Part shown: positions 4,713-19,508 of the stretch, piece by piece
Position numbering within the stretch: the stretch's first letter is position 1
Layout of the letters: the number at the start of each line of letters is the position of its first letter
Assembly: GCA_020052975.1 (NCBI GenBank)
Contig: JAGVOC010000114.1
Span: 1-19,662, forward strand
From: Desulfobacterales bacterium
GTDB taxonomy: Bacteria; Desulfobacterota; Desulfobacteria; Desulfobacterales; RPRI01
DNA length: 19,662 bases
Reading direction: 5' to 3'
Notes under the pieces: model-generated
Databases searched by the model: none
What the model saw: only the letters and a program-made list of their open reading frames with translations
Told to the model about the DNA's origin: nothing
Translations under genes and position numbers: made by a program

Positions 4713-5288
4713 CTATTTTTTCAACTTTCTGCTTATACCTGCCAGCCCAAAAAGACCGAATCCAAGAAGCAGCATGGTGGCCGGTTCAGGGACAGCGTTG
4801 TATGTAAAATTGTCCATTAGAAACCAACGACTACCATCACCGGTAAAAACAAGCTGATCGACACCATTCATTGCAACATTAAAATACGTCATTGCTCCAA
4901 GAGATAAGTTGGCAACATAAGTGTCTACCAACGCCCCATTGTTATACCCATCAATTGTTACCGAATGAGCATTGGCATACCATTCAGCATTATTGTAAAG
5001 CCAACCTGTCAAATAGGCACCGTTGAAATTAAAGTCCGAACCATTCGATAGGCTTGCACTCGTGCCACCACCATTAAACGCAAAACGGTCACCGGAGACA
5101 GCCGGCAATGTATTGAAATAACCGGAATTATAATCAGCGTAAGAATAAAGTTCCATATTGTTCCATATAAAACCTCCATAATTGCTGATATCGCCAGTTT
5201 CAAAGTCTAAAACGGTGGCGGATACCGTATTAACCATTGCAAGCATAAACAACCCAATTACCAAACCAGCCACTATCTTGTTTTTCAT
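4713..5288 (-). CDS. PEP-CTERM sorting-domain protein (paralogue 1)
   Basis: The product is a 191-residue exported precursor. A Sec signal peptide (cleavage probably after Ala24) precedes a predicted beta-rich body that starts VLDFE and contains a YGGFIWNNM motif. The C-terminus is a PEP-CTERM signal: VPEPATM from about 166, a hydrophobic helix rich in Leu, Gly and Phe, then a basic tail (RKLKK). In the family this tail is cut by exosortase and the protein goes to the exopolysaccharide or surface. An AAGGAGGT lies just upstream of the ATG. Transcription should come from the sigma-54 promoter at 5360-5375. The next gene upstream (5830-6405) is a paralogue of equal length with the same opening, so this is a duplicated pair. 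The function of the body is unknown. Confidence 0.93.
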   Translation of the reverse strand: MKNKIVAGLVIGLFMLAMVNTVSATVLDFETGDISNYGGFIWNNMELYSYADYNSGYFNTLPAVSGDRFAFNGGGTSASLSNGSDFNFNGAYLTGWLYNNAEWYANAHSVTIDGYNNGALVDTYVANLSLGAMTYFNVAMNGVDQLVFTGDGSRWFLMDNFTYNAVPEPATMLLLGFGLFGLAGISRKLKK

Positions 5289-5829: not shown

Positions 5830-6405
5830 CTATTTCTTAAATTTCCTGATTCCAGCCACACCCAGCAGGCCAAGACCGAGAAGCAGCATGGTGGTGGGTT
5901 CAGGGACTTGATGATTAAAGGTGAAATCATCCATAGCAAAATGAGAGTTACTCGTGCTGAAACGTAATTCATCAATGTCTAATAAATTGGCATTCAACCA
6001 TTGAGGAGTGGCTGTGTTCAGCGTCAAATAGATAGTGTTGACCAAAGAGCCATCATCGTAACCTTGAACTGTGAGAATGTTATCGTTTTCCCAGGCAGAG
6101 GTAAACCAAGCACCGTTGAAATCAAAATCGGCGGTTCCGGCATATGTAATTGCCATGGATCCATAGCCGTTAAGCGCGACCTGTGTTCCAGATACGACGC
6201 CATTTTCGTATCCCGAACCAGGGTGGTAGTTTGGTCCATCGACAACATACATATTATCCCAATTGAAGCCGCCATACCCATTGGAAATTAAATACAAGGA
6301 ATCTGTTTGAGGGTTTTCAAAATCCAAGACTGCTGCGCTGGCAAATCCAGCCAACCCAACCATCATCATCACAGCCATCAATCCAATCAGACACTTCTTT
6401 TTCAT
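5830..6405 (-). CDS. PEP-CTERM sorting-domain protein (paralogue 2)
   Basis: The 191-residue precursor has a signal peptide cut probably after Ala24 (GFASA). The body starts AVLDFE and carries YGGFNWDNM, DFDFNGAWFTS and HFAMDDFTFN, each with a clear counterpart in the 4713-5288 product. The C-terminus has VPEPTTM (PEP from residue 168), a hydrophobic helix and the basic tail RKFKK. The two proteins are therefore tandem paralogues, diverged in the middle. GGGAGGT lies six bases before the ATG. The -24/-12 element at 6515-6531 and two 17-bp sites lie upstream. As an exosortase substrate it should be exported and, by family knowledge, tied to the exopolysaccharide matrix; its binding partner is unknown. 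Confidence 0.93.
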   Translation of the reverse strand: MKKKCLIGLMAVMMMVGLAGFASAAVLDFENPQTDSLYLISNGYGGFNWDNMYVVDGPNYHPGSGYENGVVSGTQVALNGYGSMAITYAGTADFDFNGAWFTSAWENDNILTVQGYDDGSLVNTIYLTLNTATPQWLNANLLDIDELRFSTSNSHFAMDDFTFNHQVPEPTTMLLLGLGLLGVAGIRKFKK

Positions 6406-8096: not shown

Positions 8097-8846
8097 CTAT
8101 TTCTTCAACTTTCTGCCTACACCTGCCAAGCCGATCAGACCAAATCCGAGAAGGAGCAGGGTGGCCGGTTCGGGTACCTTTGGAACCTGTACTTTCCCTT
8201 CAATGACATCATTACCACATTGCATCGTCCAATGGAAACCGACATCGCCCCAAAAATCCATGCTCCCCGTGTTGAATGTAAAGATCAGTCCGTCGGCTGA
8301 CAGGTCATAGGTAGCGGTTCCAATTAATTCCCCGGCGCCGCCCTTCCATGCCTGGTTTTTTCGATAAATATAATTACCAGTGAGTGGTGATACATTTGTA
8401 TTAACTATTTTGCTATAATCCAGGCTATACAGCCCCCAGCTATTACCGACTTCTGTGACCACATAATCCCAACCTTCAGAGCTGCTGAAGGTGTCCGTCT
8501 CGTAATGACCAGTTCCTATGGTAGCATTCCAGCCTGTCGAGTTAATATACAGATCTCCCGGACCAAGTTTAGAAGGAAGACCACCGTCGGCTGTAGAATT
8601 CAGGTGATTTCCGAAATATGGTCCGGTGATTTTAACATTCCAGTCATTTCCGGACTTTTCAACAGTCATCTGGTCCACGCTGAAATAGGGGGCTCCGATA
8701 ACGTCTCCATATGCAGTAGGTGAGGCATTCCATACCGCCCCTCCCCAATACGCATCATCGATTGTATAGGCACCTGCCAAGGATGGAATGATACATAAGC
8801 ACATAACTATAAGAAGTTTCCGTAATCTATTTTTCATCGTTTTCAT
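8097..8846 (-). CDS. PEP-CTERM sorting-domain protein (third)
   Basis: The 249-residue precursor has a long basic n-region and signal peptide (cleavage probably after Ala26, SLAGA). The body is rich in aromatic residues, Gly, Ser and Thr and is predicted to be beta. The C-terminus is VPEPATLLLLG (PEP from residue 225), a hydrophobic helix and the tail GRKLKK. The body opens with YTIDDAYWGG and is unlike the other PEP-CTERM proteins here. It resembles precursors with an XDD-type N-terminal region, but I cannot name a fold with confidence. GGAGGA stands upstream of the first ATG and decides the start over the ATG three codons later. A strong sigma-54 promoter and one 17-bp site lie upstream. 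Expected fate: export, exosortase cleavage and surface or matrix location. Confidence 0.92.
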   Translation of the reverse strand: MKTMKNRLRKLLIVMCLCIIPSLAGAYTIDDAYWGGAVWNASPTAYGDVIGAPYFSVDQMTVEKSGNDWNVKITGPYFGNHLNSTADGGLPSKLGPGDLYINSTGWNATIGTGHYETDTFSSSEGWDYVVTEVGNSWGLYSLDYSKIVNTNVSPLTGNYIYRKNQAWKGGAGELIGTATYDLSADGLIFTFNTGSMDFWGDVGFHWTMQCGNDVIEGKVQVPKVPEPATLLLLGFGLIGLAGVGRKLKK

Positions 8847-10878: not shown

Positions 10879-11535
10879 TTAAGTGTTTTTCCTGCGGTAA
10901 AGCGCAAGACCCAGAAGGCCGGAACCGAGGAGCAGTAGGGTAGCCGGTTCGGGAACATAAATCAAAACATCCTGAGCATCGGAACCAGCCAAATGTGTGC
11001 CACGAGTTGTTGCATAAGCTAAATTTAAAACCTTAACCCGACCATTATTGCTCCATCCACCATCGACAGCCAAATCAGCTGCATCGTACCAACCTTGCGC
11101 TTGTGTGCTCAAAGCACCACCATATTCACCCTCAAACGTCCAAATGGCATACTGCAGATCGTTTGCAGACGTTTCATCGGAAACATAACCCGATAAAGTA
11201 CCAGATAAAAATTTGCTATATAACCAAGCGGTTTCGTTATCAAGCACATCATTCCCTGCTACAGTATGATCGGTAATTCCAATAACCTTGAATCCGGCAA
11301 TGTTAAAATCAAGGTGTTCCCTAGTCTGTATACAAAAAGTTCGAAATAATTCTCCAGAGGTATCACCAAGTAAATCTACACCAAATTCCCCGCCGGGATC
11401 GCCCGGTCCATTAAAAAACCGGATAGTATCGCCTACAACAATTGGATTTGCAGAATAAGAATAAGCAAAAACTCCCGGGACAATTAAAAAACAACTTATT
11501 AAGACAGCCGCTATTCCAATAAATAATTTTTTCAT
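10879..11535 (-). CDS. PEP-CTERM protein with a thioester-domain-like Cys/Gln pair
   Basis: The 218-residue precursor has a signal peptide cut probably after Ala24 (GVFA). The C-terminus is VPEPATLLLLG (PEP from residue 195), a hydrophobic helix and the tail YRRKNT. The body holds FRTFCIQT with Cys68 and, sixty residues on, DLQYAIWTFEG with Gln128. This order, a single Cys followed by a Q-x-A-I-W motif, is that of TQXA/thioester domains, where Cys and Gln form an internal thioester that can bond covalently to a target. Apart from Cys15 in the signal peptide no other Cys is present. AAGGAGG precedes the ATG. Upstream are a near-consensus sigma-54 element and a 17-bp site. A covalent adhesin or matrix crosslinker is a reasonable hypothesis; the thioester is not proven by sequence. 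Confidence 0.9.
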   Translation of the reverse strand: MKKLFIGIAAVLISCFLIVPGVFAYSYSANPIVVGDTIRFFNGPGDPGGEFGVDLLGDTSGELFRTFCIQTREHLDFNIAGFKVIGITDHTVAGNDVLDNETAWLYSKFLSGTLSGYVSDETSANDLQYAIWTFEGEYGGALSTQAQGWYDAADLAVDGGWSNNGRVKVLNLAYATTRGTHLAGSDAQDVLIYVPEPATLLLLGSGLLGLALYRRKNT

Positions 11536-12019: not shown

Positions 12020-12170
12020 TAGATAGGGGCAAGGGGCGAGGGTCGAGGGGCAAGGAGATAGGGACAAGGGTTTAGGGGCAAGGGGTCAGGGGAAAGTGAC
12101 GAGTGAATAGTGAAGATAGGACAGGGGCAAGGGTTTAGGGGCGAGGGGATAGGGAGAAAGAACAGGATTC
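12018..12170 (+). repeat. Degenerate GGG-N4 heptamer array, G-rich on plus strand
   Basis: Repeated units include GATAGGG, GCAAGGG, GCGAGGG, TCGAGGG, TTTAGGG and TCAGGGG, interrupted by a GTGACGAGTGAATAGTGA block. It forms the far arm of an inverted pair with 12253-12296, beyond the end of prsR. Confidence 0.8.
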
Positions 12171-12252
12171 AAGGGTCCAAGTGGAAAAGATTTATAGACA
12201 GGATTAACATCTGGTTAGCACAACTGATCATTTTTTCGGGTTAAATCTTGTC

Positions 12253-12296
12253 TTATCCCTTGAACCTTGACCCTAAACCCTATCCCCTATCTTATC
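12253..12296 (-). repeat. Heptamer array after prsR, C-rich on plus strand
   Basis: The minus strand, in the prsR direction, reads units GATAGGG, TTTAGGG, TCAAGG immediately after the prsR stop codon. With the opposite array at 12018-12170 it could form a large stem-loop and may serve as the operon's end. Confidence 0.75.
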
Positions 12297-13712
12297 TCAT
12301 TCCTTCGGGATTCCGAACTTCTCCATCAGGTCGTACATGGTGGGACGGCTTATGCCGAGTTCCAGTGCAGCCTTCGACAGATTGCCGCTGCTGCGGGAAA
12401 GAGCCTTCATAAGCATCTCTTTTTCGAGGGCATCACGGGCTTCTTTGAGGCCTATCCCTTTATGCATTACAAGCGGAGAAGCCATATCCAGGTCTTTGGG
12501 TGTTACCTTGTTACCTTCTGCCATAATCACGGCACGCTTGATGCGGTTTTCCAGCTCCCGGACATTTCCGGGCCAGCCATACTGCTCGATTGCATCGATG
12601 GCTTCATCGGTAAACCCTTTGATTTTTTTCCTGTTTTCATCTGAATATCGCTCAAGGAAGGCTTTTGCCAGAAGTAATACGTCCCCTTCCCTTTCTTTTA
12701 ACGAAGGAAGGGACATAAAAATAACCCCCAGGCGAAAATAAAGGTCCTCGCGGAAGCTTCCATCCTTCATGGCCTCTTTGAGATCACGGTTGGTGGCTGC
12801 AATAACACGGGTGTCCACTTCAATCACTTCCCTGCCTCCCACCCGTTCAACTATCCTTTCCTGCAGGAAACGAAGAATCTTTACCTGAAGGGATAAAGGG
12901 AGTTCACCGATCTCATCTAAAAAGAGCGTGCCCCCCTCTGCCATTTCGATGCGCCCTTTGCGCTGAACATGAGCGCCGGTAAAAGAGCCTTTTTCGTGGC
13001 CAAACAGTTCGCTTTCGAGGAGATTTTCCGGAATGGCGCCGCAATTTATAACGACGAAAGGATTTGATTTGCGAATGCTCAGCCTGTGAATGGCGCGGGC
13101 AACAAGCTCCTTGCCGGTGCCGCTTTCTCCCATGATAAGAACAGGCGCATCCGTGGCTGATATCTTTCGGATAACAGAAAATATATCCTGCATCTTCGGA
13201 CAAATACCCAGCATGCCTTCAAAAGTGTTTCCGCTGAGACGCTCCTGCAATGTCTGCTGCTCCCGTTCAAGCTGGGACAGATAGAAGGCACGGCTTAACA
13301 CAACTTTCAGCTCATCGAGTTGAATCGGCTTATAAAAGAAATCATACGCACCCTGCGCCACGGCCCTTAAGGCATTTTCCTTCTCACCTCGGCCGGTTAT
13401 GATAATCACTTTTGCCTGCCTGTTTTCGGCCATGATGTCGCTTAAGGCGGCAAAGCCCTCCTCCACACCGGCCGGCTGGGGAGGCAATCCGAGATCGAGT
13501 GTAATGACAGCCGGCTGCTCCTTTTTAAACACGGCAAGGGCGCTGCTCCGGTCTTCCGCCAGAAAAACATCGTAATCTTTGGCCAGGGCCCATTTCATCT
13601 GCTTCCGCAGATCTTCGTCATCGTCGACGATAAGAAGTTTCTGCTTTGCAGAAAAGGGTCGAGGGGCAAGGGGATAGGGTTTAGGGTCGAGGGGATAGGG
13701 TTTAGGAGGCAT
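12297..13712 (-). CDS. prsR: PEP-CTERM-box response regulator, sigma-54 activator
   Basis: The 471-residue protein has a receiver domain (24-140; acidic triad at 30-32, phospho-acceptor Asp73, Lys128), an AAA+ sigma-54 activation domain and a Fis-type helix-turn-helix (about 443-466, SGNLSKAALELGISRPTMY). The AAA+ domain has Walker A GESGTGKE at 195-202, the RpoN-contact loop GSFTGA at 242-247 and Walker B TLFLDE at 262-267. This is the PrsR architecture. In Zoogloea PrsK/PrsR with RpoN has been linked to PEP-CTERM gene expression. Its likely targets here are the 17-bp sites and -24/-12 promoters to the left. Oddity: residues 2-19 (PPKPYPLDPKPYPLAPRP) are translated heptamer array; KLLIVDDD follows from residue 25. 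AAAGGA seven bases before this ATG supports it, and no other start exists before the receiver domain. The stop of the upstream four-helix gene is only 11 bp away. Confidence 0.93.
   Translation of the reverse strand: MPPKPYPLDPKPYPLAPRPFSAKQKLLIVDDDEDLRKQMKWALAKDYDVFLAEDRSSALAVFKKEQPAVITLDLGLPPQPAGVEEGFAALSDIMAENRQAKVIIITGRGEKENALRAVAQGAYDFFYKPIQLDELKVVLSRAFYLSQLEREQQTLQERLSGNTFEGMLGICPKMQDIFSVIRKISATDAPVLIMGESGTGKELVARAIHRLSIRKSNPFVVINCGAIPENLLESELFGHEKGSFTGAHVQRKGRIEMAEGGTLFLDEIGELPLSLQVKILRFLQERIVERVGGREVIEVDTRVIAATNRDLKEAMKDGSFREDLYFRLGVIFMSLPSLKEREGDVLLLAKAFLERYSDENRKKIKGFTDEAIDAIEQYGWPGNVRELENRIKRAVIMAEGNKVTPKDLDMASPLVMHKGIGLKEARDALEKEMLMKALSRSSGNLSKAALELGISRPTMYDLMEKFGIPKE
13653..13710 (+). 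repeat. Heptamer array inside the 5' end of prsR
   Basis: On the plus strand it reads TCGAGGG, GCAAGGG, GATAGGG, TTTAGGG, TCGAGGG, GATAGGG, TTTAGG. It lies between the prsR ATG and the first receiver-domain codons and is in frame, so 21-nt blocks translate as a seven-residue period (PKPYPLD, PKPYPLA). Confidence 0.85.
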
Positions 13713-13723
13713 TGCTCGTTCCT

Positions 13724-14086
13724 TTATTTCTTTTGTGATAAAGATTTTATCAAACCATTGAGAATTTTTGATACTTCTTCTTGCAATGCATAAAGCTTTA
13801 AATATTTCTCACTATCTAACAAATCAAGATCCTGTGAGAGAGAAAGCAATGTTTCTAACTCGCTACACGATCCATAGGCAACATATAGAAATTGAATATC
13901 TTCTTTTATATTTTTTCGACTATAACCCTCTGCTATATTGCAAGGTATGGAAACAGCGCTCCGTCGCATTTGTGATATAAGACCAAATCTCTCATCCTGA
14001 GGATAATCCTTCGTAACTTTGTAGATTTCAAGGGACAGGTTGTATCCTTTCTGATAACCAATCAAGTCTTTGTAACTCTTAAGCAT
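13724..14086 (-). CDS. Four-helix-bundle protein (23S rRNA intervening-sequence/S23 family)
   Basis: The 120-residue protein matches the four-helix-bundle family often encoded in 23S rRNA intervening sequences and also found alone. The signature runs through residues 35-57 and includes GLISQMRRSAVSIPCN and IAEGYSRKN. Its biochemical role is not settled. The gene lies between prsK and prsR in the same direction. Its start region is made of heptamer array: GGGG stands eight bases before the ATG and more G abuts it, so the array supplies the ribosome binding site. Its TAA is followed after eleven bases by the prsR ATG, with prsR's Shine-Dalgarno overlapping the end. A truncated, frameshifted second copy stands before prsK (16343-16566), so the element has been duplicated within the operon. 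A regulatory role here is unproven; it may be a passenger. Confidence 0.9.
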   Translation of the reverse strand: MLKSYKDLIGYQKGYNLSLEIYKVTKDYPQDERFGLISQMRRSAVSIPCNIAEGYSRKNIKEDIQFLYVAYGSCSELETLLSLSQDLDLLDSEKYLKLYALQEEVSKILNGLIKSLSQKK

Positions 14087-14186
14087 CCCCCTATCCCCTT
14101 GCCCCTAAACCCTTGCCCCTAAACCCTTGACCCTAAACCCTCGACCCTAAACCCTTGACCCTAAACCCTATCCCCTCGACCCTATT
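14087..14186 (-). repeat. Heptamer array between prsK and the four-helix gene
   Basis: About thirteen units, C-rich on the plus strand: CCCTAAA, CCCTTGA, CCCTCGA, CCCTATC, CCCTTGC. In the mRNA it is G-rich. It begins in the prsK stop codon (the TAG of a TAGGG unit) and runs up to the ATG of the four-helix gene. Confidence 0.9.
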
Positions 14187-16296
14187 TTGCCACCGGCAAC
14201 AAAACCCGAAACGTTGTCCCCTTCCCTTCTTCGCTTTCTGCTTCAATCCTTCCGCCATGTGCTTCGACTATGGTTTTGCAGTGATAAAGACCGATTCCCA
14301 TTCCCTGCTTTTTTGTCGTCCTGAAGGGACGAAAAAGATCGTTCGCGATAAATTCCACCGGCATCCCGCACCCGTTATCACGCACCAGAACCTCTGCCCA
14401 GTTATCCTTAGAACTTGTTTCAACGAATATCTGCCCCTCCTGCCCAAGAGAATCACATGCATTCATCAGGAGATTTTCAAGCACCTTATGGATCTGCTCC
14501 GGGTCTATGGAAACAGGAGTCACGGCGTTTAAGTTCCGTGAAACCGGGACCTTGATATATTCTTTCAGATCCGAAATGGTTGCCGCAACCAGTTCATTTA
14601 AATCTGTTTCTCTCAATGAAATGTTCAGCCTCTGGCTCAGAAGGGAGAGGCGGCTGCTCATGTTATTAATCTTGGATACGCTCTGGGAGATCGTTTTCAG
14701 GGCATCACTGCGAAACTCCGGATTATCAATATGAAGAGGCAGGTTCTGGGTGACAAGGGAGAGTTTCGAGGCCAAGTTTTTAAGATCATGCATGAAAAAG
14801 GCGGACATGGACTGAAAAGCCTCAAGCTCCTTAACCTGGCGGAGATGCTCTGAAAGTCTCAGGTTCATCAGGCTGGCCGCTGCCTGGCCGGCAATAGTCC
14901 TGACAAGCTCGGATTCTTCAAAAGAAAGAGATTCATAAAAAACTTTTTCGCTCAACGTCATAATCCCGATGAGGCGTCCCGCAGCATTGAGGGGCACGCA
15001 GTAACGTATGCGGGATTCCCGCGTTTCTGCTCCATAGGTGCGGTTCAGATCTTCCACCCAGTTGTCTTTATCACCTTCCGGACGCCCCTCAAGATCGACC
15101 GGCATGGTCTGATCCGTCATGGCGCGAATCATATCAGTACCTCCCTGACCGGATAGTTTCATTTGATCGGCCTGGGCATCCGCAAAAACAGTTGAGCCGC
15201 CGAAGAAGAGTCTTTCCTGTTTCTCGTCAACGAGCCAGATGCTGACCGAAAGTATCTCCATGGTTTCCGAAACCATCTTTACGATAACATTGCAAAGCTC
15301 CCTTGTTTGCGTGACAGAAGCGGTCCTGTTGGTAAAATTCTCCCATATTTTCTGATAGTCGTACTGGGGCCGTTTGAAATGGCGGCTGATGAAGCGCTTC
15401 CTCTTCACCCGGAGGCGGTCGGAAAGCAGGAGAGTTGCGATTCCGATTACGGCAACAAATACAAGGAATATGACAAGGTGAATATTGCTTATCCACTCAA
15501 AACGGATTGAAAGCCAAGCAAACACTCCCACAGAGATAAAATATACACCAGTGATAAGCGTGGTAAAGGAATTATAAAGAAATTGGTGGGACAGATGTAC
15601 GCCTGCAGCAAGTGGTTTTCCCCGGAAAAGGGACCGTAAAATGAGAAGATCGGCTACAAGGAGCGCTCTCGGATTGACCAGGGAAAGACCTGTGTTTACA
15701 CCTCTAAAAAGCAGTGCCTGGCTGTCGGTGAACAGGTGAACTCCGAAGATGGCCCCCAGGCCGAGGAACATAAACTTGGTCTGCCAGCGCGTGTGGCCCG
15801 TGGCATGACGGAATGTCCTTTCAAGGTTCATCAGGATCAGCACTGCAGAGACCACCCAGAGAAGATGCCAGGCATATCCGGACCATCCGATCGGGATAAA
15901 AAGAACAGATGTTTCCCCCAGAACCGGCACTCCCGCAAAGAAGGTATCATTGAAAAGAGTGACCATGGAAACAGGCAGAATTAAAGATGGAAGCAGAACC
16001 CATTTCCAGCTTGATATCTGCTCCGAATAGTTGGCCCTGGCAAAACTTACACTGAAGAAAAGCCAGACAGCAGGCAGGAAAGACGCGGCAATAAGCTGAA
16101 GCCTCTCCCGGAACAGAAAATTGTCAAATGCCGGCGCCTGTGAAACGAATCCGGTCAACCCTGCGTCAATTGCAAACAGAATCATGCCCGCGGCAAAAAC
16201 GCGGTGCACAAAAGAGCGCGGATCACGATACAGCGCCATAACAGCGATGCCTGCCGTCACAATTGCCGCAATATATGGCATATAAATGTTAAACAT
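14182..16296 (-). CDS. prsK: PEP-CTERM system membrane histidine kinase with GAF domain
   Basis: From the ATG at 16296 the protein has 704 residues. The N-terminal third (about 1-295) is a series of hydrophobic membrane segments. A GAF domain follows (about 330-475). Next comes the dimerisation/phosphorylation helix FFMHDLKNLASKL with His503. The ATPase domain has N box ENLLMNACDS (607-616), G1 DNGCGM (640-645) and G2 GMGIGL (665-670). This is the PrsK layout, and PrsR is encoded close downstream. An in-frame ATG at 16317 lies within a heptamer array (MTLNPP) and is a less likely start; neither ATG has a good Shine-Dalgarno, since the leader is C-rich in the mRNA. The gene ends in the TAG of an array unit. 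It should sense an unknown envelope or redox cue and phosphorylate PrsR. Confidence 0.92.
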   Translation of the reverse strand: MFNIYMPYIAAIVTAGIAVMALYRDPRSFVHRVFAAGMILFAIDAGLTGFVSQAPAFDNFLFRERLQLIAASFLPAVWLFFSVSFARANYSEQISSWKWVLLPSLILPVSMVTLFNDTFFAGVPVLGETSVLFIPIGWSGYAWHLLWVVSAVLILMNLERTFRHATGHTRWQTKFMFLGLGAIFGVHLFTDSQALLFRGVNTGLSLVNPRALLVADLLILRSLFRGKPLAAGVHLSHQFLYNSFTTLITGVYFISVGVFAWLSIRFEWISNIHLVIFLVFVAVIGIATLLLSDRLRVKRKRFISRHFKRPQYDYQKIWENFTNRTASVTQTRELCNVIVKMVSETMEILSVSIWLVDEKQERLFFGGSTVFADAQADQMKLSGQGGTDMIRAMTDQTMPVDLEGRPEGDKDNWVEDLNRTYGAETRESRIRYCVPLNAAGRLIGIMTLSEKVFYESLSFEESELVRTIAGQAAASLMNLRLSEHLRQVKELEAFQSMSAFFMHDLKNLASKLSLVTQNLPLHIDNPEFRSDALKTISQSVSKINNMSSRLSLLSQRLNISLRETDLNELVAATISDLKEYIKVPVSRNLNAVTPVSIDPEQIHKVLENLLMNACDSLGQEGQIFVETSSKDNWAEVLVRDNGCGMPVEFIANDLFRPFRTTKKQGMGIGLYHCKTIVEAHGGRIEAESEEGKGTTFRVLLPVAK

Positions 16297-16301
16297 AATT
16301 G

Positions 16302-16337
16302 GAGGGTTTAGGGTCAAGGGGCCAGGGTCAAGGGTTT
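16302..16337 (+). repeat. Heptamer array before prsK
   Basis: Plus strand GAGGGTTTAGGG, TCAAGGGGCCAGGG, TCAAGGGTTTA, C-rich in the mRNA just before the prsK start. It directly follows the GCAATGC end of the four-helix pseudogene element, as the array in prsR does for the intact element. Confidence 0.8.
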
Positions 16338-16342
16338 AAAAA

Positions 16343-16566
16343 GCATTGCATGTTCCTCTATTTTTTTTGTGAAAGAGATTTAATCAAACCATTGATAATT
16401 TTTGATACTTCTTTTTGTAATGCATAAAGCTTTATATATTTCTCACTATCTAACAATTCAAGATCCCGTGAGAGAAAGCAATGTTTCTAACTCGCTACAC
16501 GATCCATAGGCAACATAGAGAAATTGAAGATATTCTTTTATATTTTTTCGACTATAACCCTCTGCT
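16343..16566 (-). pseudogene. Truncated, frameshifted copy of the four-helix-bundle element
   Basis: This stretch is highly similar to 13709-13932, covering the last two thirds of the 120-residue four-helix gene, its stop (16358-16360), a GAGGA and a GCAATG. The first third is missing; at 16566 homology stops abruptly at a heptamer array. A two-base deletion in the CTCTCTC tract changes the frame: translation reads EGYSRKNIKEYLQFLYVAYG and soon after ends at TGA. The ATG after GAGGA opens only a ten-codon frame here. In prsR the equivalent ATG starts the protein. Confidence 0.85.
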
Positions 16567-16666
16567 TTAGGGTCTAGGGTCGAGGGTCGAGGGTTTAGGG
16601 TCGAGGATGGAATCCTTGCACCTAAACCCTATCCCCTTGACCCTAGACCCTAAACCCTCGCCCCTT
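16566..16666. repeat. Back-to-back inverted heptamer arrays after the exosortase gene
   Basis: From 16566 to about 16610 the plus strand is G-rich (TTTAGGG, TCTAGGG, TCGAGGG, TCGAGGG, TTTAGGG, TCGAGG). From 16619 to 16666 it is C-rich (CCTAAACCCTATCCCCTTGA, CCCTAGA, CCCTAAA, CCCTCGC). The halves are complementary, with GATGGAATCCTTGC as the loop. The C-rich half encodes the last residues and stop of the exosortase. Confidence 0.85.
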
Positions 16667-17532: not shown

Positions 17533-17605
17533 TTAGGGTTTAGGGGCAAGGGTATAGGGTTTAGGGTTGTCATTTAGGGTATAGGGGCAAGGGTCAAGGG
17601 GTTAG
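17533..17605 (+). repeat. Heptamer array before the exosortase gene
   Basis: Plus strand TTAGGGTTTAGGGGCAAGGG, TATAGGGTTTAGGG, TATAGGGGCAAGGG, TCAAGGGG. It is C-rich in the mRNA and complementary to the array at 17663-17737. Confidence 0.85.
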
Positions 17606-17662
17606 AGTTAATGATCCGGACATCGTGCATCGTACCTCGATATTCGATATTCGCCTCTCGCC

Positions 17663-17737
17663 CATAGACCCTAAATCCTCGCCCCTAAACCCTATACCCT
17701 ATACCCTATACCCTCTCTATACCCTATACCCTCTTTC
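17663..17737 (-). repeat. Heptamer array after the nucleotide-sugar dehydrogenase gene
   Basis: Plus strand CCCTAAATCCTCGCCCCTAA followed by five near-uniform TACCCTA units with a CTCTC interruption. In the mRNA this is GGGTATAGGG-type sequence running straight from the last codons of the dehydrogenase. With 17533-17605 it makes a long imperfect stem around a loop near 17606-17662. Confidence 0.85.
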
Positions 17738-19452: not shown

Positions 19453-19508
19453 GGTAAATAGTGACAAGTGACGGGTGACGAGTTACCATTTACTATTCAC
19501 TATTTACC
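19453..19508. repeat. Inverted repeat upstream of the dehydrogenase gene
   Basis: GGTAAATAGTGA (19453-19464) pairs with TCACTATTTACC (19497-19508). Inside are GTGACAAGTGACGGGTGACGAG tandem repeats related to the GTGACGAGTGAATAGTGA blocks at 5655-5690 and 12095-12115. It lies in the likely leader of the operon. Confidence 0.7.

Follow-up and report, generated by a model that had tools for sequence, protein, structure and literature searches.

A four-helix-bundle gene between complementary heptad arrays, a proposed one-gene mobile element of bacterial operons

The window analysed here is the whole 19,662-nucleotide contig JAGVOC010000114.1 of a Desulfobacterales bacterium (assembly GCA_020052975.1), and all the features described below lie on its minus strand. 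Its prs operon includes the histidine kinase gene prsK (14182..16317; TIGR02916, 405.1 bits) and, downstream, prsR, which encodes a PEP-CTERM response regulator (12297..13712; TIGR02915, 648.8 bits). Between the two genes lies an element that we call element A. Its 5' arm (14088..14184) is a heptad array, G-rich on the coding strand (to which the composition of all arrays refers), that starts within the prsK stop codon and continues into a Shine-Dalgarno-like GGGGG preceding the ATG of a four-helix gene. The preliminary description had called this gene intact, and the window ORF list agrees (13724..14086, 120 amino acids); a profile search matched the protein to PF05635 (126.1 bits, cut-off 33.8) and to TIGR02436 (122.4 bits, cut-off 24). 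The gene is followed by a short tail, made of AGGAACGAGCA and an ATG (13710..13723), and by a C-rich 3' arm (13655..13711). The inverted match between the two arms scores 55.

A remnant of a second copy, element B (16343..16566), lost its 5' half and carries a single 2-base deletion that causes a frameshift, in line with its initial description as truncated and frameshifted. Copies A and B can be aligned over 13697-13937 and 16331-16569, with 219 of the 239 aligned bases identical, and the alignment bears out the claim that their homology continues beyond the stop codon, via AGGAACNNGCAATG, into the array in both copies. Both copies had also been placed between a G-rich and a C-rich array, which is correct for copy A but not for copy B. 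In coding-strand order, the surroundings of the latter consist of a G-rich array (16614..16666) that overlaps the exosortase gene at its 3' end, a C-rich array (16567..16606) in the place expected for the 5' half of the element, the four-helix remnant, and the C-rich 3' arm (16303..16335); the first two of these arrays form a small hairpin. Two other array pairs have no four-helix gene: a solo hairpin between the nucleotide-sugar dehydrogenase and exosortase genes (17535..17734, with arrays at 17535-17600 and 17668-17734) and a pair directly after prsR (12025..12291, with arrays at 12025-12154 and about 12254-12291). Overall, the window contains 33 occurrences of the heptad pattern GGGNNNNx3GGG, whereas 200 dinucleotide shuffles yielded 0.01 on average and never more than 1.

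The suggestion that the ribosome binding site and ATG of prsR belong to the element is supported by our analysis. Within its first 38 codons, prsR has no ATG, GTG or TTG other than the ATG at position 13712, and PrsR matches TIGR02915 only from residue 26 onwards. Hence, prsR starts within the tail of element A, which serves it as ribosome binding site and start, and roughly its first 19 residues are the translated 3' arm. Occupied prsK-prsR junctions were found in four loci, i.e., the window, L001, L006, and L009. In the window, L006, and L009, the start codons available to prsR are only before or in the C-rich array, and the array is read as the N-terminus. The arrangement differs in L001 (protein 84% identical), where the frame of the tail has a stop, the own GTG of prsR lies after the 3' arm, and the signature GGAACNNGCAATG is already altered. 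The compact prsK-prsR junctions L112-L115, which have no four-helix gene, do not have this start region either. As for prsK, it does not start at the ATG of the copy B tail, because that frame closes after 10 codons; its true start is probably the ATG following the 3' arm of copy B.

Further copies exist in other genomes. Of 147 full four-helix genes, the window copy included, 109 have flanks that are reverse-complementary to each other with a score of at least 24. At this threshold, the background amounts to 96 of 2940 swapped flank pairs and 27 of 1470 shuffles, and 20 of 311 control genes have complementary flanks (Fisher p 5e-51), after removal of four mis-sorted four-helix genes and of repeats from the control set. 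Arms match inside one copy and rarely across unrelated copies, with 7 of 104 matching other four-helix copies within the same genome. The best arm period was 7 in 130 of 180 cases and 8 in 36 (shuffled arms gave 33 at 7), the arms on the 5' side are mostly G-rich, and the arm-to-arm length has a median of 510 bp. Stops in all three frames were weighed as a possible purpose of the 7-bp period: they were found in 30 of the 109 5' arms, where shuffling leads one to expect 14, but the 3' arms exceed expectation too (11 against 4.5), and this reading was therefore set aside. Records with paired arms are titled or classed as Syntrophaceae, Nitrospirae, Flavobacteriales, Acidobacteria, Phycisphaerales, Cyanobacteriota, and Gemmatimonadota. 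The score test detected no complementary flanks in 38 of the 147 full copies, although it overlooks copies whose 3' arm overlaps the end of the ORF, such as the plasmid loci L294, L295, and L299. Some copies appear to be truly armless (L251, L255, L298), and many broken four-helix copies were found.

Closely related proteins tend to have the same arms. Among the 19 protein pairs with at least 60% identity, from different genomes and with unshared neighbours, 11 have a same-sense arm motif in common and none an opposite-sense one; one of these pairs (L016/L017) is a single locus in two genomes, and without it 10 of 18 share the motif. Among pairs less than 45% identical, sharing is 1-2%. The motif tracks the protein lineage even across unrelated contexts (Mantel, 0 of 2000 permutations).

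Solo arrays of AATGTGC, TTAAGTNN, AGAAGKT, and AAGGCNN concentrate where the matching protein is present. Those of AATGTGC were found in 2 of 60 genomes, and G124, identified by this motif alone, encodes a four-helix protein 80-83% identical to those of G104, with the same arms. Those of TTAAGTNN were found in 3 of 60 genomes, two of which have the matching lineage. G017 has 3 such matches, and its L073 is 54-59% identical with different arms; the TTAAGTNN search found none in G043, of the same lineage, nor in G021 (L130, 63-64% identical). The association of TTAAGT with the lineage (G030, G066, G043, G017, G021) has a Fisher value of 3e-4, the values for solo arrays not being independent draws since the genomes are related. 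For the two other motifs, the expected genomes were drawn from the arms of four-helix copies: AGAAGKT arrays are present in 4 of 4 expected genomes (G021, G028, G039, G044) and in 3 of 56 others (G031, G053, G060), and AAGGCNN arrays in 6 of 7 expected genomes (not G047) and in 7 of 53 others. All genomes with forward arrays of either motif carry PF05635. There were 256 forward matches to AAGGCNN, and its reversed control had 12, spread over 7 genomes of which two lack PF05635. The window motif GGGTTTA had 5 matches in 3 of 60 genomes, and its reversed control 3. We also considered that the dispersed repeats might occur solely as hairpin pairs and rejected this idea, many solo arrays being single in the sequence stretches examined from G030, G104, and G124.

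The reading that we consider probable is that of a one-gene mobile element, made of a four-helix gene and two arms, whose protein recognises its own heptad arms. Such an element would consist, in this order, of a 5' heptad array, a ribosome binding site, the four-helix ORF, a short tail, and a complementary 3' array. Insertion would take place at a gene's stop codon, mostly in operons and in the sense of transcription, and the next gene would receive a new spacer and sometimes a ribosome binding site or a start codon. Like its relatives of solved structure, the four-helix protein is probably an oligomer. It would recognise its own arms, be it as double-stranded DNA, as a DNA cruciform, or as an RNA hairpin, which would keep arm motif and protein lineage matched, and shorter ORF-less versions and single arrays would disperse in the presence of the matching protein. 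Binding of the arms by the protein, and its role as the driver of dispersal, are our inferences.

A possible but clearly less probable explanation is that of an RNA-level intervening sequence, where arm pairing in the mRNA gives a stem that RNase III cuts out, as it does in 23S rRNA, and movement takes place via RNA, the arms serving RNA processing and not DNA recognition. The protein family, the size class, and the layout are shared with the 23S intervening sequence, and the window element folds with a z of -7.0. The sense bias is also strong: among 138 copies, both neighbours are co-directional in 88 and both opposed in 10, as scored on longest-ORF picks that include errors (L003, L069). Furthermore, PF05635 and Avd are related families, and Avd is described as an essential partner in DGR retrohoming (PMC10053308). 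However, the arms carry no wobble signature, with 129 G-U against 102 A-C mismatches (p 0.09), or 189 against 170 under milder scoring (p 0.34), and partnerless single arrays are common in the stretches named above.

Occupied and empty sites were seen in cultured cyanobacterial plasmids. The cleanest case opposes the occupied Trichormus L299 to the empty sites of Nostoc linckia (L300) and Tolypothrix (L301), the insert measuring 428 bp with a 5-bp target repeat, GTAAT, over the upstream stop codon. The comparison of the occupied Nostoc L273 with the empty L290/L291 gives 506 bp, and at the best-resolved empty sites the gene and both arms are missing together. Similarly, Picosynechococcus PCC 7003 has an element between cas10 and cmr3 and PCC 7002 has the same place without it. 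Target repeats were searched at six sites: one has a clear repeat of 5 bp, a second an exact one of 3 bp, a third a candidate, TTCTA, picked by eye, and the remaining three gave no call. In 107 older copies, target duplications inferred without empty sites show up weakly as a slight excess of flanking 5-mer repeats (32 against a swapped mean of 22.5, with 9 of 500 shuffles as high); for 4-, 6-, and 7-mers, 219, 20, and 51 of 500 shuffles were as high. The element encodes no recombinase gene. Together with the paired-arm copies found elsewhere and with the lineage-following arms, the occupied and empty sites substantiate the early proposal that array and four-helix gene spread as one unit.

It seems unlikely that the four-helix protein and the hairpin are instead kept by the host because they regulate differential expression of its operon. 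Distant genomes do share the occupied prsK-prsR junction, five genomes in the Flavobacteriales set have an occupied sdhA-sdhB junction, and thiolase junctions are occupied in both genome sets; the long residence at the sdhA-sdhB and thiolase junctions indicates that many copies are not young. Yet, the orthologous junctions of relatives are empty, broken copies are numerous, and the contexts, including plasmid transfer, integrase, and CRISPR operons, have no common theme. Very improbable, finally, is the idea that four-helix genes are passive residents, building up between heptad arrays whose spread has other causes: arrays do outnumber the genes (30 pattern matches, some overlapping, for one PF05635 match in G030, and 34 for six in G104), but the arm motif matches the protein lineage in unrelated contexts, gene and arms are absent jointly at the best-resolved empty sites, and the 17 genomes with arrays of TTAAGTNN, GGGTTTA, AGAAGKT, or AAGGCNN are all among the 31 PF05635 carriers, with none among the 29 PF05635-free genomes, which are relatives of G001.

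Puzzling 7-base repeats are scattered in many bacterial genomes, and the proposed mobile element may be their explanation. If the element is real, a family annotated merely as four helix bundle or S23 becomes a mobile-element protein, the long-known and unexplained heptad repeats gain an origin, and the 23S rRNA intervening sequences join a larger family. The cas10-cmr3 copy may also bear on the reason why an association screen lists IVP genes next to CRISPR genes. A bolder version, which we regard as doubtful, is that the smallest autonomous transposons known have the four-helix protein itself, reading a heptad code, as their recombinase or nuclease or as its indispensable core. The highly conserved polar residues Q39, R42, S46, N50, E53, and E76 would then form an active site that has escaped recognition, and the non-autonomous offspring of the protein would be the classical heptads of Xanthomonas, cyanobacteria, and many environmental bacteria.

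Among known systems, REP/REPIN sequences with their RAYT (TnpA-REP) transposases similarly associate one protein gene with many non-autonomous repeats that carry its cognate motif and lie in the same genome. However, RAYTs are HUH Y1 nucleases and REP sequences are short palindromes, whereas the protein described here is a four-helix bundle without a known catalytic motif and its repeats are heptad arrays. The window gene had no match to transposase families, matching only the four-helix families PF05635, bAvd, TIGR02436, PRK12275-type, and Avd. The Avd of diversity-generating retroelements and bAvd are of a related family (weak PF22296 and NF033474 matches), but the window protein is below both cut-offs (bAvd 36.9 against 40, DivGenRetAVD 29.1 against 80), and there is no reverse transcriptase among the annotated neighbours of the plasmid copies examined.

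The heptad SSRs, with which the cyanobacterial STRRs are grouped, also have a 7-bp unit and are intergenic. They include GGGAATC in Xanthomonas and GGGGAYT in Nostoc (PMC4692102), as well as TAACTGA in Beggiatoaceae (PMC4679880). In the available portions of these accounts, the Xanthomonas SSRs have the layout of paired arms: they form convergent inverted pairs, with the sense strand at most 50 bp from a stop codon or the antisense strand upstream of an ORF; the origin of heptad SSRs is described as unknown, an association with mobile elements is generally not found (PMC4692102), and no four-helix gene is named (PMC4692102, PMC4679880). We found no open-licence literature tying non-rRNA PF05635 genes to heptad arrays.

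The likeness noted at the outset, that with the 23S rRNA intervening sequences, is upheld, and these appear related to the heptad-arm element. They share the protein family and a sporadic distribution, measure about 430-500 bp, and have their ORF enclosed by terminal inverted repeats that form a stem. In PMC4990558, the Coxiella one is 428 nt long, with a 28-bp terminal stem and an S23 ORF, and the intervening sequence is termed a selfish element. The window element, in contrast, lies between prsK and prsR and not inside a 23S rRNA gene, and an Rfam scan of the window gave no family above its cut-off. More generally, heptad-arm elements differ from the 23S intervening sequences by their location at stop codons in protein-coding operons, their lineage-matched arms, their genome-dispersed solo arrays, and a target repeat seen clearly at one site.

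The four-helix gene at 13724-14086 of the window belongs to PF05635 (23S_rRNA_IVP) and represents a wide family of small mobile elements, in which the gene lies between heptad arms (arrays with a period of about 7 bp, the 3' arm being reverse-complementary to the 5' arm) that match the encoded protein. The duplicated element reported in the preliminary description is real, and its scope is wider than was proposed there. In the window, GGGNNNN-form heptad arrays occupy the intergenic gaps among the minus-strand genes for a nucleotide-sugar dehydrogenase, an exosortase, and the PEP-CTERM-system histidine kinase (prsK) and response regulator (prsR). The copy before prsR is intact, while the one before prsK (16343-16566) lacks its 5' half and 2 further bases; an alignment of the two has 219 identities in 239 bases and extends beyond the stop codon, through AGGAACNNGCAATG, and into the array. 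The suggestion that the element lends prsR its start is right, because the ATG in its tail is the sole start codon among the first 38 prsR codons and the prsR family match starts at residue 26. This does not extend to prsK, since the tail ATG of the remnant meets a stop after ten codons. Similarly, the placement of both copies between G-rich and C-rich arrays holds for the intact copy, but around the remnant the coding-strand order is another one, with a G-rich and then a C-rich array before the remnant and a second C-rich array after it. Further along, a heptad hairpin of another family (GTGACAAGTGACGGGTGACGAG and AATAGTGAATAG-like units) precedes the nucleotide-sugar dehydrogenase at 19455-19505, without a four-helix gene. 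The ORFs at 4713-5288, 5830-6405, 8097-8846, and 10879-11535 have PEP-CTERM-like tails (VPEPAT/VPEPTT and a hydrophobic stretch, read by eye) and are likely substrates of the exosortase, whose gene adjoins prsK/prsR.

Four prsK-prsR junctions were found to be occupied: that of the window and those of loci L001, L006, and L009. In L006, the prsR frame offers a single start codon, an ATG that stands 18 codons ahead of LLIVDD and leads into the translated C-rich array. The L009 frame offers only a TTG (20 codons ahead of LLIIDD) and an ATG (18 codons ahead), both preceding the array. In L001, the tail frame contains a stop and the GTG of prsR itself sits past the 3' arm. The 119 relatives of the L001 genome yielded 11 prsR genes, one of which (L111) is L001 itself. 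The junctions of L112-L115 are compact and element-free; L117 has a longer spacer and no four-helix gene, L118 shows paired arrays, again with no such gene, and L119 a short array. As for the others, prsK was not seen in the stretch read for L116, L120 is doubtful, and L121 is truncated where the contig ends.

A protein scan of genome contigs gave 22 loci, and the flanks of the 11 that were printed mostly had the same layout with different heptads. PF05635 was sought in 8 of these genomes and in 60 relatives each of the genomes that carry L001 (Syntrophaceae) and L010 (Flavobacteriales); matches occurred in 31 relatives of the former and in 39 of the latter (37 over the cut-off). We compared the 200 bp upstream of each gene with the reverse complement of the 250 bp downstream. 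For the first 88 copies, the gene's own flank pair was above the 99% shuffle level in 67 cases, against 59 of 1760 swapped pairs and 7 of 104 pairings with other copies of the same genome. The set was then enlarged to 198 distinct matches, 156 of them full length and 147 with usable N-free flanks. A score of at least 24, the cut-off for complementary flanks, was reached by 109 of the 147 own pairs, 96 of 2940 swapped pairs, 27 of 1470 shuffled pairs, and 20 of 311 control genes, a set from which four mis-sorted four-helix genes and duplicate genes had been taken out and whose 20 scoring members include the window's prsK and exosortase, themselves between arrays. The 109 copies come from 58 genomes or loci.

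These elements are compact (median 510 bp from arm to arm), with arms of about 31 bp (median). Of 180 arms, 130 fit a period of 7 best and 36 a period of 8, as compared with 33 shuffled arms at 7. The 5' arm has more G than C in 90 copies and more C than G in 15, with 4 ties. Of the 81 copies whose upstream gene is on the same strand, 54 have a 5' arm that starts between -12 and +18 bases from the last sense codon of that gene. Both neighbours are co-directional with the element in 88 of 138 copies and both opposed in 10, the remainder being mixed; neighbours are longest-ORF picks, with errors in some GC-rich loci (L003, L069). Some copies depart from this layout. In L064, L076, L096, and L105, the flanks score high (73-91) as direct repeats instead of, or besides, inverted ones. 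Two 98% identical four-helix genes in two genomes (L251 in G124, L255 in G104) have no visible arms and are perhaps domesticated members. One relative, G033, has 18 PF05635 matches, many of them fragments, which suggests a burst followed by decay. Finally, in an operon of G072 (L156), a thiolase gene has a four-helix gene on either side, with an acyl-CoA dehydrogenase gene coming after the second; this closely resembles the doubled prs operon in the window.

The arms follow the protein lineage. Among pairs of the 109 copies taken from different genomes and with no neighbour genes in common, an arm motif was common, in the same sense, to 11 of 19 pairs with proteins at least 60% identical (10 of 18 without L016/L017, which is one locus in two genomes), against 0 of 19 in the opposite sense and 1-2% of the pairs below 45% identity. 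For instance, L003 and L004 encode 87% identical proteins in different genomes and between different neighbours, with the same GGGTATCGGG-type arms. In 26 of 36 cases from close pairs, a copy's own arms gave a better fit than crossed ones. Arrays lacking the gene were sought by motif. Hits of four patterns (TTAAGT, GGGTTTA, AGAAGKT, and AAGGCNN) in 60 relatives of G001 were confined to PF05635-bearing genomes, 17 of 31, with none in the 29 that lack the family. The TTAAGT pattern (three units, 60 genomes) was found in G030 (30 hits, one PF05635 match), G066 (12), and G017 (3). The linked protein lineage is present in the first two, and the G017 protein is 54-59% identical with other arms; the pattern had no match in G043, of the same lineage, or in G021 (L130, 63-64% identical). 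AATGTGC units occurred in 2 of 60 genomes, G104 (34 hits) and G124 (10); following the match, G124 was found to encode a four-helix protein 80-83% identical to those of G104, with the same arms. AGAAGKT units were found in all 4 expected genomes and three others, and AAGGCNN units in 6 of 7 expected genomes and seven others (256 forward hits versus 12 for the reversed control). GGGTTTA units gave 5 hits in 3 of 60 genomes, beside 3 hits for their reversed control.

Occupied and empty versions of the same sites support mobility. At a thiolase junction, the element is present in L240-L242, L243 retains the arms after loss of the gene, arms and gene are both missing from L244, and L245 has a solo pair with the motif of the same genome's own four-helix gene (L067). 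In the Flavobacteriales set, one site contains the element in G100 and solo arrays of another family in G088. The cleanest cases are on plasmids of cultured cyanobacteria. The stretch around the Trichormus element L299 is present without it in Nostoc linckia (L300) and Tolypothrix PCC 7601 (L301); the insert is 428 bp, counting one repeat copy, and repeats GTAAT, which includes the upstream stop TAA. The Nostoc copy L273, compared with L290/L291, is an insert of 506 bp at a site where stop and start codons overlap as TAATG, with ATG repeated exactly. Comparing L294/L295 with L292 gives a candidate TTCTA repeat, seen by eye and not called by the script, and three other comparisons (L274 with L287, L271 with L284, L297 with L302) oppose occupied to empty sites with borders that could not be fixed. 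Of the eleven plasmid loci scored, 8 reach at least 24 (L271-L276, L278, L297), the arms of L277 and L299 overlap the ORF end, and no arms were seen in L298. On a Picosynechococcus PCC 7003 plasmid, the L297 element separates cas10 from cmr3 in a type III-B CRISPR operon, and it is absent in PCC 7002 (L302), which may bear on the IVP hits of CRISPR association screens.

The only product of the element is a protein about 120 residues long; a recombinase is not encoded. Solved relatives 2gsc and 2rld have five chains per entry, which fits a pentamer. Highly conserved polar residues are Q39 (0.98), R42 (0.85), S46 and N50 (0.96), and E53 and E76 (0.99). In a separate 14-sequence alignment, the PCNIAEGY block is partly an artefact of the search pattern. 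In the simplest reading, the four-helix protein would recognise its own heptads and then either recruit a host enzyme or act itself. The element may instead take an RNA route, in line with its sense bias and its likeness to 23S intervening sequences, but the arms lack the G-U preference expected from selection on RNA pairing, and recognition of DNA is for this reason somewhat favoured.

Our search of open-licence literature found no paper linking the four-helix gene with heptad arrays. XCC0516, the protein of 2gsc, is, from its name, presumably of the same Xanthomonas species as the GGGAATC arrays. Among known systems, Xanthomonas and Nostoc are reported to have heptad repeats with no general link to mobile elements; those of Xanthomonas form inverted pairs that converge, in sense orientation close to stop codons and in antisense orientation ahead of ORFs (PMC4692102). 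Such repeats are also described in Beggiatoaceae (PMC4679880). PF05635 is called Avd-like in a DGR survey (PMC10053308), and one figure legend from a CRISPR association screen names it (PMC10910872). The Coxiella 23S intervening sequence is presented as a selfish element of 428 nt that has an S23 ORF and a terminal stem of 28 bp and is excised by RNase III (PMC4990558). The element described here resembles 23S intervening sequences in build, but not in their defining location, and REP/RAYT systems in behaviour, but without the REP/RAYT nuclease; because both of these features are missing, we class it as neither.
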